From positions 1 to 15,897 of the forward strand of contig SHXF01000096.1 of the NCBI GenBank assembly GCA_009693435.1: a stretch of DNA of 15,897 nucleotides. Reading direction: 5' to 3'. Positions 8,371 through 15,897 of the stretch are shown piece by piece (positions within the stretch are counted from its first letter, which is position 1; every line of letters begins with the position of its first letter). A program made the translations under genes and the position numbers. The notes under the pieces were generated by a model. It did no database searches. It had not been told where the DNA came from and saw only the letters and a list, made by a program, of their open reading frames with translations. This DNA comes from Betaproteobacteria bacterium. GTDB lineage: Bacteria; Pseudomonadota; Gammaproteobacteria; Burkholderiales; SG8-39.

Positions 8371-8451
8371 CCTCCCGCGGAGACAGTAGCTTTGCATCCC
8401 TCTCCAGCGGAAGGATAGCTTTGCTTCCCCCTCCAGCGGAGGGATAGCTTT
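8371..8451. repeat. 29-bp tandem repeat, about 2.7 copies
   Basis: CTCCAGCGGAGGGATAGC preceded by TTTGCTTCCC forms a unit of about 29 bases. It repeats from a degenerate first copy (CCTCCCGCGGAGACAGTAGC at 8371) through two clearer copies. The third start merges directly into the larger inverted-repeat array to the right. A related single unit of about 30 bases, with CTCTACCCTCCGGAG, is inserted inside that array near 8860-8885, so the two repeat types are mixed. It is non-coding. Confidence 0.8.
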
Positions 8452-8452
8452 G

Positions 8453-8997
8453 CTTCCCTCTCCCCCCGGGAGAGGGATTGAGGGTGAGGGAAAACCCGGC
8501 ACAGCGTCGCGAATTTCCCCTCATCCCCGGCCCTTCTCCCGGGGGGAGAAGGGAGAAGGCCGTCGCTTCTTCCCCGGAGATCGGCACCGCTTCCCTCTCC
8601 CGCCGGGAGAGGGATCGAGGGTGAGGGAAGGTCCGGCACGGTCACGCGATTTTCCCCTCATCCCCACCCCTTCTCCCGGGGGGAGAAGGGAGAAGGCCGT
8701 CGCTCCTTCCCCGGAGATCGGCCCCGCTTCCCTCTCCCGCCGGGAGAGGGATCGAGGGTGAGGGAAAACCCGGCACAGCGTCGCGAATTTCCCCTCATCC
8801 CCGGCCCTTCTCCCGGAGGGAGAAGGGAGAAGGCCGTCGCTTCTTCCCTGGAGATCGGTCCTGCCTCGCTCTACCCTCCGGAGATCGGCCCTGCTTCCCT
8901 CTCCCGCCGGGAGAGGGATTGAGGGTGAGGGAAGGTCCGACGCGGTCTCGCGAATTTCCCCTCATCCCCGGCCCTTCTCCCGGAGGGAGAAGGGAGA
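8453..8997. repeat. Array of inverted GC-rich repeats (BIME-like), 137-bp composite unit, four copies
   Basis: CTTCCCTCTCC begins units at 8453, 8590, 8727 and 8894, so the periods are 137, 137 and 167; the third unit carries an extra 30-bp insert. Each unit holds a forward element (CCCTCTCCCGCCGGGAGAGG, followed by ATCGAGGGTGAGGGA) and, after a linker, its inverted counterpart (TTTCCCCTCATCCCCGGCCC, then TTCTCCCGGGGGGAGAAGGG). The array therefore holds eight hairpins in alternating orientation. The last unit is cut short at 8997. This resembles bacterial interspersed mosaic elements built from REP-like palindromes. The unit length is not a multiple of three, which argues against coding. Together with the 29-bp repeats it fills the 770-base gap between the ligase and the alpha/beta hydrolase. 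Confidence 0.9.
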
Positions 8998-9119
8998 TTA
9001 TCGATCGCGTCTTTGTTGATTCTGCGGGTCACATGGGGGATACATGCAGGATACATGCGGGACGTGCAGGGTCGGAAGAATGTAAAGTGCCAATCCGAAT
9101 CGAGCAACAGGGAGCACCC

Positions 9120-13109: not shown

Positions 13110-14816
13110 TCACTGCGTTGCCGATGCCGGCTGCTCGCGCGAGGTGTCGCGCAAGGTGTCGTGCGAGGTGTCGTGCAAGCTGTCGCGCAGTGTGTTCTTG
13201 GCGATTTTGCCAAAGCCGACGCGCGGCAGCGCCGGCACCACGATCACGTCGCGCGGCACCTTGAATTTCGCCAGCGATGCGCGGCAATGCGCGATCACCC
13301 GCGCAGGGATGGTCGCAACAGATTCGCTCACACCCGCTTGCGGGTCGCGCCCGTCAGTGTCGAGTTCGACGAACGCCACCACTACCTCGCCATAATCGGC
13401 ATCGGGCCGCGCCACCACCGCCGCGCCGCGCACGCCAGCCACTTCCAGCACCACCCGCTCGACCTCCGCCGGCGACACGCCTTCGCCGCCCACCTTGATC
13501 ACGTCCTTCGCGCGGTCGGCGAACTGTATGAATCCGTCCGGGTGCAGGATGACGCGATCGCCAGTGCGGAAGTAGCCGCCCTCATCGAAGGCATCGGCGG
13601 TGGCGCGGGCATCGTCCACATAGTTGGCGAATATCGACACGCCGGGCACGCCCCGCACCAGCAGGTTGCCGGTGCCGCCCGGTTCCACGGCGCAGCCGTC
13701 ATCGTCTTCGATGCGGATGCCATAGGCCGGCGATGGACGGCCTATGGAACCGGAGCGCTGCGGCAGCCACGGATCGCCGATGATGCCCTGGCCGACCATT
13801 TCGGTCATGCCCCAGGCGCCGAGTATGCGCACGCCGAAATGCGCTTCGAATTGATGCAGGCAGAGCGCATCCACCCACTGTCGAAATGCGTGGCTGGCCG
13901 GCGCCGGCTGCTGCGCCAGCACGCGCGCGGTGAAAATCACCTGCGAGCCGACCGTGGCGCGATGTGCCAGCGCCGCGCCCCAGTAGCGGCTCGCTGAAAA
14001 ACGCGGCTGCAGCAGCACCGTCGCGCCGGCCCATAACGCCGGCAAAAACGACCAGGACAGCGCCACCACGTGATAAAGCGGCAGGAAAATCTGATACACA
14101 TCGTCGCCGCGCAATGCCTGCTGCAACGCCCCAAGCCGTCCGCCCCACAGCGCGTTGGCGTGTGTCCACAGCACGCCTTTCGGCCGCGAGGTAGTGCCGG
14201 TAGTGAACAGGATCAGAGCCGGCGCGGCGGGATCGGGCGCGCGTCGCGGCAGCGGCTCGCCGTACAGGGCTGAAAACGACTCGGCGGCGGCCGGTACGCT
14301 GCCAACAGCGGCAGGTGTGCCGGCATCGGACCTCGTCACCGCCAGCCATTTCAGGCCCCGGCAATGCGCTGCCACCAGCGCGGCGAATTTCGGCTGCGTG
14401 ACCGCGCCGACGGCGCCGGTGAAACCGACATACCAGTCCAGTTCCGCCCCCGCTGCCATCGCGTTCACCGGCACGTACACGGCACCCAGGCGCGCGCAGG
14501 CAAACAGGGTCAGCAGCGCCTCGGGACAGTTCTCCAGCATCACCATCACCCGATCGCCCGGGCGCACACCGCGCGCCGCGAGGCCGCCGGCGACACGCGC
14601 CGCTTCGTCGGCAAATCGCGCGTAGGACCAGGTTTCGGCGTGACCGGAGGCGGATTCGCCGTGGCCGGTCATAGGTTCGCCGCCACCGGCCAAAGGTTCG
14701 CCCTGTCCGGCGAAGGGCGCCCACACCAGGAACGGATGCCCGGCGCGCTGCTGCGCGCGCGTCTCGAGCAACGACGCCAGATCGAATCCTGCGAAGGGAG
14801 ATGCGTCGACAACCAT
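13110..14816 (-). CDS. AMP-dependent acyl-CoA ligase, CaiC-like, with repeat insertions
   Basis: This class I adenylate-forming CoA ligase has 568 residues from the chosen start. Motifs are LFTTGTTSRPKG (203-214), GAWGMTEM (333-340), RTGD (417-420), the hinge QFADRAKDVIKVGGEG (431-446) and the adenylation lysine Lys537 in GFGKIAK. The WGMTE core and overall pattern resemble crotonobetaine/carnitine-CoA ligases, but the acid is unknown. Four heptapeptide repeats (PFAGQGE, PLAGGGE, PMTGHGE, SASGHAE; residues 34-61) are inserted between the first strand and TWSYARF. The C-terminus ends in tetrapeptide repeats (TLRDSLHDTSHDTLRDTSRE). The frame extends to an ATG at 14906 and a TTG at 14918. I prefer the ATG at 14816 because family similarity begins just after it. 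It is first in the run with the dehydrogenase and receptor genes. Confidence 0.88.
   Translation of the reverse strand: MVVDASPFAGFDLASLLETRAQQRAGHPFLVWAPFAGQGEPLAGGGEPMTGHGESASGHAETWSYARFADEAARVAGGLAARGVRPGDRVMVMLENCPEALLTLFACARLGAVYVPVNAMAAGAELDWYVGFTGAVGAVTQPKFAALVAAHCRGLKWLAVTRSDAGTPAAVGSVPAAAESFSALYGEPLPRRAPDPAAPALILFTTGTTSRPKGVLWTHANALWGGRLGALQQALRGDDVYQIFLPLYHVVALSWSFLPALWAGATVLLQPRFSASRYWGAALAHRATVGSQVIFTARVLAQQPAPASHAFRQWVDALCLHQFEAHFGVRILGAWGMTEMVGQGIIGDPWLPQRSGSIGRPSPAYGIRIEDDDGCAVEPGGTGNLLVRGVPGVSIFANYVDDARATADAFDEGGYFRTGDRVILHPDGFIQFADRAKDVIKVGGEGVSPAEVERVVLEVAGVRGAAVVARPDADYGEVVVAFVELDTDGRDPQAGVSESVATIPARVIAHCRASLAKFKVPRDVIVVPALPRVGFGKIAKNTLRDSLHDTSHDTLRDTSREQPASATQ
13137..13196. 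repeat. 12-bp in-frame tandem repeat at the 3' end of the CoA ligase gene
   Basis: Units GCGCGAGGTGTC, GCGCAAGGTGTC, GTGCGAGGTGTC and GTGCAAGCTGTC follow one another from 13137 to 13184, with a decayed fifth to 13196. On the coding strand they give DTSR, DTLR, DTSH and DSLH, so the ligase tail has been lengthened by whole codons without breaking the frame. The repeat lies after the catalytic lysine and is unlikely to matter for catalysis. Confidence 0.88.
14634..14717. repeat. 21-bp in-frame tandem repeat inside the CoA ligase gene
   Basis: Units start with TTCGGC or TTCGCC at 14634, 14655, 14676 and 14697, a strict 21-base period, and share a CCGG core. On the coding strand each gives one heptapeptide with a G-x-G-E or similar ending. 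The reading frame is kept. The position is a surface-loop region near the N-terminus, before the first conserved motifs. Confidence 0.85.
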
Positions 14817-14826
14817 GGGAGCGGCG

Positions 14827-14832
14827 AGTATA
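14827..14832 (-). promoter_or_regulatory. Possible -10 element before the preferred CoA ligase start
   Basis: The minus strand reads GATATACTCGCC here, with the TATACT hexamer ending ten bases before the ATG at 14816. If used, the mRNA would be almost leaderless at that ATG, which would explain why no ribosome binding site is visible. The -35 region is poor, so the call is weak. Confidence 0.3.
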
Positions 14833-15015
14833 TCAGCGGCGCTGTGGCCGGCCTGTTGCCGGGGGAAGCTGCCACCGGAATCGTCATGCGCAGTATGAGG
14901 TTTCATTGTGATTTTCAATGAATCGGGATAGGGTGTTGAAAGAGAAGTGAGATGACGTCAGTGAGCTGATTGAATCGCCGAAATAGTTGCCAATCACAAA
15001 GTTTCAGTGAAATTC

Positions 15016-15049
15016 GTCAACTAAAAATGTCAACCAAGTCAAGTTGGGC
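15016..15049 (+). other. Cassette left boundary: GTTGGGC core preceded by GTCAAC direct repeats
   Basis: GTTGGGC at 15043-15049 fits the integron core consensus GTTRRRY and stands 17 bases before the cassette ATG, a typical distance. Just upstream are three short direct repeats, GTCAAC at 15016 and 15029 and GTCAAG at 15038. No attC-like folded structure is visible on its left, so this could be an attI-like site, a worn attC or a secondary insertion site. The rest of 14919-15015 is relatively AT-rich and shows only a TGACGTCA palindrome at 14953-14960. Confidence 0.45.
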
Positions 15050-15066
15050 CCAGAAAGGAGACGAAC

Positions 15067-15327
15067 ATGTCGACCGCTACCGCTGACGAAATTCGTCAAT
15101 TCGTGGACATCACGTATTTTCAGCCAGCCCGGCGAGGCCGTAAGCGCCAAGTCACCGTGGTTGCGTTGGACGTCCACAACGACATGAAGCTCGACAATCG
15201 AATGCCCGCTATATGCAGCGCGTTGGACGCCAAAGTCGTAGAAGCAAAGTACCGCGTCTCGCTTACTAAACGTTCTGGTCCGAGACAAAGCTCAACAGCT
15301 ACTTGGGTGTTCTCAACACAGCCGTGA
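15067..15327 (+). CDS. Cassette-encoded small hypothetical protein
   Basis: This 86-residue soluble protein starts at an ATG with AAAGGAG about six bases upstream, the strongest ribosome binding site at this end of the window. It begins with TADEIRQFVDITYFQPARRG, continues with a hydrophobic strand VTVVALDVHNDM, then NRMPAICSALDA and a basic KRSGPRQSSTATWVF segment near the end. The mix of helix, strand and basic residues could fit a nucleic-acid-binding protein, but that is a guess. I recall similar short proteins only as uncharacterised hypotheticals. It is the only gene of the presumed cassette and lies in the same direction as its attC. No signal peptide or membrane segment is visible. 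Confidence 0.7.
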   Translation: MSTATADEIRQFVDITYFQPARRGRKRQVTVVALDVHNDMKLDNRMPAICSALDAKVVEAKYRVSLTKRSGPRQSSTATWVFSTQP

Positions 15328-15433
15328 TTTCGGACCAACAGACAAAATTTGGCAGTTGCCCGATGTTTGCTTCTGCGCACTCCAAGTTTCACTGCTTCAA
15401 CCCGTTTCTCTACTGTTTTAATGTTGCGCCGCA

Positions 15434-15506
15434 GCCTAACCCACGGCTCAACCGGACGCCCCACGGCTGGCTTCTCCGGCCGTGGGCTGCCGGTTAGCCG
15501 CAACGT
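15434..15506 (+). other. attC-like recombination site, interrupted in its right core
   Basis: The left core is GCCTAAC (15434-15440), fitting RYYYAAC. A left arm GGCTCAACCGGACGCC is followed by a strong central palindrome (CCCACGGC with GCCGTGGG around a GGCTTCTCC-type loop). The right arm is GGGCTGCCGGTTAGC. The arms pair with one extra C in the left arm (GCTCAACC against GCTAACC), the extrahelical base that gives attC sites their orientation. The site should end in GTTRRRY; instead CAACGT runs straight into the intron start, so the right core is split. Confidence 0.65.
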
Positions 15507-15897
15507 GTGTGTCGGGCATGGCGCGTTACTTAGTCGGTGCAAGTCCGACTGCCAGGTTTTCGCAGAGCCGAAGGCAAGGAGAAGGGCAAGGGCGTCGTCG
15601 CGAGGCGGGGTCTGAAGGAAGTCCAATCCGAAACTGCGGGGCGATGAACAAAAACCGGCCTGATCGAAAATGCGGAGGCGTGGTGCATCCGGGGCGTGCA
15701 GGTTCGATTCGGGGCACGTGACCGCGAAGCCCTCCATCTGCGGTTGGGGTGCACTTTATAAATCCGGCGCCTATGCAGCGAAGGTAACGAGTCTTACCCC
15801 GGGAGATCTGCCGGATCTGTTGGCGCTAGTGAATGAACCCACGCCAACTGGGCAAGGCGCAAGCCGAGCCGAACGAATGGCAGAAGTCAGCAGAGGG
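15507..15897 (+). mobile_element. Group II intron, 5' ribozyme portion, cut by the window edge
   Basis: The sequence opens with GTGTGTCGGGCATGG, matching the GTGYG 5' consensus. The stem AGTCGG/CCGACT around TGCAAGT (15532-15550) follows, as do GCGAGGCGGGGTCTGAAGGA and, near the edge, AATGGCAGAAGTCAGCAGAG. The last motif is one I know from just upstream of bacterial group II intron reverse transcriptase genes. No long frame is present, as expected for domains I-III, and the reverse transcriptase ORF, domain V and the 3' exon must lie to the right. The first intron base could be 15505 or 15507, because GTGTG can be read at either. The intron reads in the same direction as the cassette ORF. It is a mobile retroelement and a self-splicing RNA, probably active if its reverse transcriptase is intact. 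Confidence 0.88.

Follow-up and report, generated by a model that had tools for sequence, protein, structure and literature searches.

A group IIC intron in cassette orientation in the right core of an integron attC site: a probable member of a lineage that prefers the attC top strand

Group IIC-attC introns are inserted in the bottom strand of integron attC sites and lie opposite to the cassettes. They target TTGT/T in the GTTRRRY core, read on the other strand (available text of PMC7923331). Bottom-strand introns of the S.ma.I2 kind, represented here by locus L085, resemble the intron lineage described below in their IIC ribozyme, the attC hairpin as 5' motif, insertion at GT/T in GTTRRRY and a reverse transcriptase without endonuclease domain. 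They differ in attC strand and orientation, in target (TTGT versus RCGT), in EBS1 (ACAA versus ACGT) and in reverse transcriptase clade. The likeness to S.ma.I2 is by published name only, the sequences compared being L085 and its relatives. An Enterobacter cloacae IIC intron in the attC top strand was reported in a 2012 paper cited in the available text of PMC7923331. It is likened to the present intron through that citation. The intron of Shewanella algae KC-Na-R1 has the same orientation as the cassettes (available text of PMC9229058). The IIB intron UHB.I2 also lies just after an attC in cassette orientation (available text of PMC7923331) but differs in its IIB ribozyme, its CL1 protein and its UUGCG start. 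The available part of PMC6591265 compares pR148, pVb0267, pVb0499 and pEC732_IMP14, and orientation is not discussed in that part. A literature search, with most subscription papers outside its scope, found no description of a top-strand IIC lineage or of its EBS1. As far as the sources were seen, which was in part, two single same-orientation IIC introns in attC had appeared in print as oddities, one of them very likely a lineage member.

The window is the whole stretch of DNA analysed, 15,897 nucleotides in length. Its last 900 bases hold, in + strand order, a core-like GTTGGGC, an 86-aa ORF, an attC and the 5' part of an intron. The preferred reading, with a probability of about 0.84, is that a group IIC intron occupies the right core of the attC on its top strand, that its likely route of entry was reverse splicing into the top strand in its folded state, and that it belongs to a lineage preferring that strand. 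Direct observations are the attC with its orientation, the point at which the intron begins, the match of EBS1 to IBS1, and a shared strand and position across many other sites of the lineage. The features are as follows.

15043..15049, + strand: GTTGGGC, a GTTRRRY core, likely left boundary of the cassette; the ATG follows after 17 nt
15067..15327, + strand: 86-aa ORF, likely cassette gene, with one array homologue in L212
15434..15506, + strand: attC top strand through the first two bases of the R' core (covariance model R1, fold)
15434..15440, + strand: R'' core GCCTAAC (sequence)
15445..15499, + strand: attC hairpin whose 5' arm leaves C15449 and A15456 unpaired (fold, sequence)
15503..15506, + strand: IBS1 ACGT, end of the 5' exon (CGT ends 67 of 74 listed exons, window included)
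15507..15897, + strand: 5' part of a group IIC intron, truncated where the contig stops (GTGTG start, Rfam, DNA tree)
15716..15719, + strand: EBS1 ACGT, pairing over four bases with IBS1 at 15503-15506

The attC begins with an R'' core of the form RYYYAAC and has palindromic L boxes and extrahelical bases on one side. The L box AACCGG (15450-15455) pairs with CCGGTT (15490-15495), and past the unpaired C15449 the stem is extended outward by GGCT (15445-15448) pairing with AGCC (15496-15499). An inner stem of 11 bp (15460-15470 / 15476-15486) is set off by unpaired bases, four on the 5' side starting with A15456 and three on the 3' side. Folded as single-stranded DNA, 15420-15505 gave -27.1 kcal/mol, with a z of -3.95 against shuffles. 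A15456 and C15449 are six bases apart and give T-N6-G extrahelical bases on the bottom strand. This is the arrangement of canonical, easily excised attC bottom strands (available text of PMC3053210), and the + strand is therefore the attC top strand and the cassette strand. Only G15505-T15506 of the R' core is present before the intron starts with GTGTG at 15507. A finder for attC sites with both cores intact found none in 14001-15600 of the window, as expected since the R' core is split.

Covariance model R1 was built from 20 lineage 5' exons, with the window and plasmids excluded. The hairpin in its training alignment covaries: 93.5% of cells were paired compared to 65.5% in shuffles, and the covariation score was 0.656 compared to 0.136; none of 500 shuffles reached either value. 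The pairing was destroyed when partners were slid. On the window R1 matched 15434-15506 on the + strand with 36.7 bits (E 1.6e-8 over 49.8 kb), the sole window match up to E 5. With filters off, 14900-15897 gave two extra matches of 5.0 and 4.3 bits, which is chance level. In all R1 gave nine matches across six sources: one in the window, three at plasmid intron sites and five at intron-free attCs. Of these five, three follow qac cassettes of class 1 integrons and the other two are in L212. By the record annotations and the L212 ORF, all nine are in cassette orientation. The sequence-only reading had described an attC-like fold whose last core is cut where a group II intron begins, with the intron in cassette orientation. 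All of this held, as did the contrast it drew with known IIC-attC introns, the ORF, the attC top strand and the intron being on the + strand.

The GTTGGGC at 15043-15049 is of a type expected by chance about 0.016 times per 40 nt on one strand of the window. The 86-aa ORF that follows had no match in a Pfam search. A homologue with 52% identity lies inside a cassette array in L212 (one of 74 genomes, one family). The core-to-core finder placed an attC ahead of it, and from the GTTAGGC of that attC to the ATG of the homologue there are 17 nt, the same spacing as in the window. Two more attCs were detected upstream on the same strand with R1, and a further attC-like stretch was seen by eye downstream. 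A wider draw gave homologues in 0 of 360 genomes, so the claim for a cassette gene rests on this single array homologue. Given the homologue and the equal core-to-ATG distance, 15043-15506 is likely a single integron gene cassette, with the ORF between core site and attC. Plasmids hold more distant homologues of the ORF in 85 records, all below 60% identity, many of them named AAA family ATPase. The ORF resembles part of these proteins, at best with 45.7% identity (Sphingobium), and judged from sequence may be a detached domain of them.

The cassette region adjoins genes on the opposite strand for an AMP-binding enzyme, with matches in 4 of 300 genomes at 50-53% identity, and a 2-hydroxyacid dehydrogenase. 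A plasmid search with the DNA of 14930-15510 found nothing similar, and the attC region gave weak short matches only. No integrase gene was noticed when the ORF list of the window, which ends at 15897, was read through. The single attC and the missing integrase gene, at a point where the contig ends, would suit a chromosomal hairpin that merely resembles an attC beside a chance ORF. That explanation is hardly credible given the E value of the R1 match, the presence of both R'' and the T-N6-G bases, and an ORF homologue at an equal distance from its core in a cassette array. In a separate, repeat-rich intergenic stretch of the window (8450-9000), several weak matches to unrelated microRNA families were seen, far under the cut-offs.

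The cassette intron itself has a GUGYG 5' end and a match to the ribozyme domain (Rfam group-II-D1D4-3, 15594-15792, + strand, E 6.5e-12). As is usual for group IIC, the stem-loop of 15445-15499 stands in place of IBS2 and the EBS1-IBS1 pairing is short. Group-II-D1D4-3 was read as a IIC model, and the assignment to IIC is supported by the kin in the reverse transcriptase and ribozyme trees. Of the intron the contig covers 391 bases, up to 15897; domains V and VI, the reverse transcriptase and the 3' exon lie beyond that point. Kin about 75% identical were found by blastn in class 1 integrons, and kin 86% identical in genomes. The blastn matches include pR148, pVb0267, pVb0499 and pEC732_IMP14. 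They also include a plasmid of KC-Na-R1, on which an intron 74.8% identical over 77% of the query follows aadA1 in cassette orientation. It is very likely the intron of PMC9229058, as described in the available text, and lies in a class 1 integron on a resistance plasmid, whereas the window has a likely lone cassette beside chromosomal genes. In the DNA tree the window ribozyme grouped with L011, L148 and L176 at 100/97, inside the lineage. Contigs often end within a lineage intron, as in the window and in L116, L128, L132, L149 and L150, and this fits several copies per genome.

Relatives of the intron were assembled as 74 listed sites, chosen by intron sequence similarity and not by exon. 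In one of the similarity searches the best 80 of at least 433 relatives were used. Among 369 genomes of one class, 28 had some intron match and 16 had a match from the first base of the intron. The list includes L043 and L051, which are other IIC introns of weak similarity, and L027 twice. Twenty of the site rows trained R1 and 47 rows (45 loci) were held out; L052 was unscored, L001-L003 and the window were scored apart from the held-out set, and L043 and L051 were scored among the other IIC introns. The comparison set was made up of introns related to L085, which lies opposite blaIMP-4 and fits the published description of bottom-strand IIC-attC introns. R1 missed the attC to which the L085 intron lies opposite.

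The two sets fell on different attC strands. In the 45 held-out loci all 39 R1 matches at E<=0.01, in 23 loci, were on the intron strand, and 17 fall at the 5' splice site. With the limit at E<=1 the intron strand carried 55 of 56 matches, 22 at the splice site. In the 25 loci of the bottom-strand lineage all nine matches at E<=0.01 were on the opposite strand, six at the splice site, one of the nine (in L096) being a training sequence; at E<=1 it was 12 of 13, eight at the splice site. An R1 match at E<=0.01 was present in just 7 of these 25 loci. Since R1 matches also occur away from splice sites, several lineage introns sit in arrays of multiple attCs with the same direction.

The hairpins of the exons agree with the strand assignment. 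In 72 lineage exons (window and L052, with four bases of exon, left out) the extra base was in the 5' arm in 36, in the 3' arm in three and symmetric in four at a score of at least 22, compared to 2.65, 2.9 and 1.4, respectively, when shuffled exons were put through the same fold finder. With no score limit the counts were 45, 10 and five, with 12 unfolded. Of the 25 exons of the bottom-strand lineage, 16 have the extra base in the 3' arm and two in the 5' arm.

A generalist IIC intron, entering after any stable hairpin followed by CGT, could have hit the attC as a common hairpin and with no preference for the top strand. This is unlikely, and parts of the data speak for it. For 25 of the 47 held-out rows (46 distinct sites) no R1 match was found at the splice site at E<=1, and at L126, L147 and L184 no attC was seen by eye at the insertion site. 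Two of the three nearest relatives of the window intron, L011 and L148, have no splice-site match, and the third, L176, scored 32.2 bits. Some unmatched sites have attC-like hairpins of different spacing (L007). Against a generalist, the 17 held-out splice sites that follow an attC at E<=0.01 are all in one orientation with zero in the other, and a need for hairpin and CGT alone should yield some attCs in the other orientation. The other IIC introns (49 loci, 336 kb) gave no R1 match at E<=1; several of them are preceded by terminator-like hairpins with T runs, as judged by eye. Genome G832 has five copies of the lineage intron (L177, L184, L186, L189, L191). A splice-site match was found in L186 alone; some of the copies therefore occupy CGT sites at which no attC was recognised.

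To locate EBS1, the first occurrence of a sequence box was taken, independently of the exon; L043 and L051 were dropped, leaving 72 rows. As a control, full exon pairing was found in five of the nine other IIC introns with a box (of 36), where 0.77 were expected and 0 of 2000 permutations reached this. In the top-strand lineage 47 of the 72 rows have a box. EBS1 is ACGT in 45 of the 47, and in 38 of the 47 it forms four base pairs with its own exon, wobble included. The commonest exon ends are ACGT (33) and GCGT (26), because EBS1 ACGT pairs with both once G-U wobble is allowed. In the bottom-strand lineage EBS1 is ACAA in 10 of the 11 rows with a box (of 25) and is fully paired in nine of the 11, and 19 of 25 exons end in TTGT. 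Where the 3' end was recognised among the relatives (26 distinct loci of 34 examined) the first base of the 3' exon is T in 25, and in 21 this T is followed by A.

These pairings bear on whether the window holds an ordinary bottom-strand IIC-attC intron, its attC having been misread in direction or its cassette inverted. Such an error is conceivable: an attC is almost palindromic, and the target that the known introns use, TTGT/T, belongs to the same GTTRRRY core on the other strand (available text of PMC7923331). It is nevertheless very improbable here. The 5' arm has the extra bases, as is the case for attC top strands; R1 matched the + strand only, and the intron is on that strand too. The 5' exon ends in ACGT and not TTGT, EBS1 is ACGT and not ACAA, and the window ribozyme groups with the other lineage.

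The top-strand and bottom-strand introns are also separate in their proteins. The lineage groups had already been named, by intron start and exon, when the reverse transcriptase tree was built. The tree was made by maximum likelihood with 73 of the 123 proteins found. Twenty-five proteins of the top-strand lineage and L033, whose contig starts inside its intron, formed one clade (100/99). The bottom-strand lineage, only six proteins in this tree, formed its own clade (100/99) beside four proteins of which three are named Bacillota. One of these six, L209, was on a long branch. A single clade of both lineages was rejected (p-AU 0.0055). Proteins of two lineage members and of L085 have RVT_1 and GIIM and no endonuclease domain.

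Since the relatives lie in the same orientation at dozens of other attC sites, the window intron likely belongs to a separate lineage, one that from its sequence likely attacks the attC face that the well-known integron introns leave alone. The sequence-only reading had offered two explanations for the orientation, the other attC face or a different intron class. Each is true in part. The strand counts of R1 support use of the other face, and the intron is still of group IIC, but the reverse transcriptase clades and EBS1 set its lineage apart.

In the preferred reading, that of reverse splicing into the top strand, the intron RNA and its reverse transcriptase would bind the single-stranded top-strand hairpin, which would take the role that IBS2 has in other group II introns. 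EBS1 ACGU would pair with the RCGT below the hairpin and the RNA would be inserted between GT and T of GTTRRRY. The inserted RNA would then be copied from a replication primer, the proteins of relatives being without an endonuclease domain. The better-known IIC-attC introns would mirror this on the bottom strand, EBS1 being ACAA and the target TTGT. The split R' core is predicted to stop integrase recombination at this attC, so that the cassette would be locked in place, as had been proposed from the sequence. The companion proposal, that the intron could move with the cassette, found no support in this analysis. Since the intron has the sense orientation of the cassette, cassette transcripts could lose it by splicing, which does not hold for the antisense bottom-strand introns.

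On balance it seems that IIC introns have settled attC sites at least twice, once on the bottom strand (ACAA/TTGT) and once on the top strand (ACGU/RCGT, including the window). The top-strand lineage, being sense and spliceable from transcripts, would do less harm than its antisense counterpart as it spreads through arrays, while freezing the cassettes it has entered. Same-orientation IIC introns in attC sites would thus pass from single oddities to the rule for a whole lineage, and the choice of strand would have a base-pairing reason in clean contrast with the known IIC-attC lineage. The window intron is one more member, and the interest lies in the rule. Three testable questions are raised. 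The first is how a retroelement chooses between the faces of a single-stranded site that has folded. The second is whether folding takes place in cells for attC top strands, which are not used by the integrase, and the third whether the introns freeze cassette order and yet stay silent in expression.

No introns similar to that of the window were found in phage records, and a search of viral contigs by protein gave no confirmed relative. One viral contig (L218, 12709-12800) has a lineage intron start after a hairpin, which the attC model scored at 19.7 bits (E 0.0028). Lineage members L030-L033 and L040 are in contigs labelled Desulfobacteraceae, Deltaproteobacteria, Bacillota and Gemmatimonadetes, which suggests that the lineage has spread beyond Pseudomonadota if the bins are right. 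In L096 a 49-base attC (1452-1500) lies between a left-running intron of the bottom-strand type on its left and a right-running intron of the top-strand type on its right. Both kinds of intron have apparently used the two faces of one attC; the double insertion is possibly an assembly error. In L177 (1270-1330) an attC is followed by the first 28 bases of a lineage intron and then directly by the start of another, which seems to be an intron inserted into an intron.
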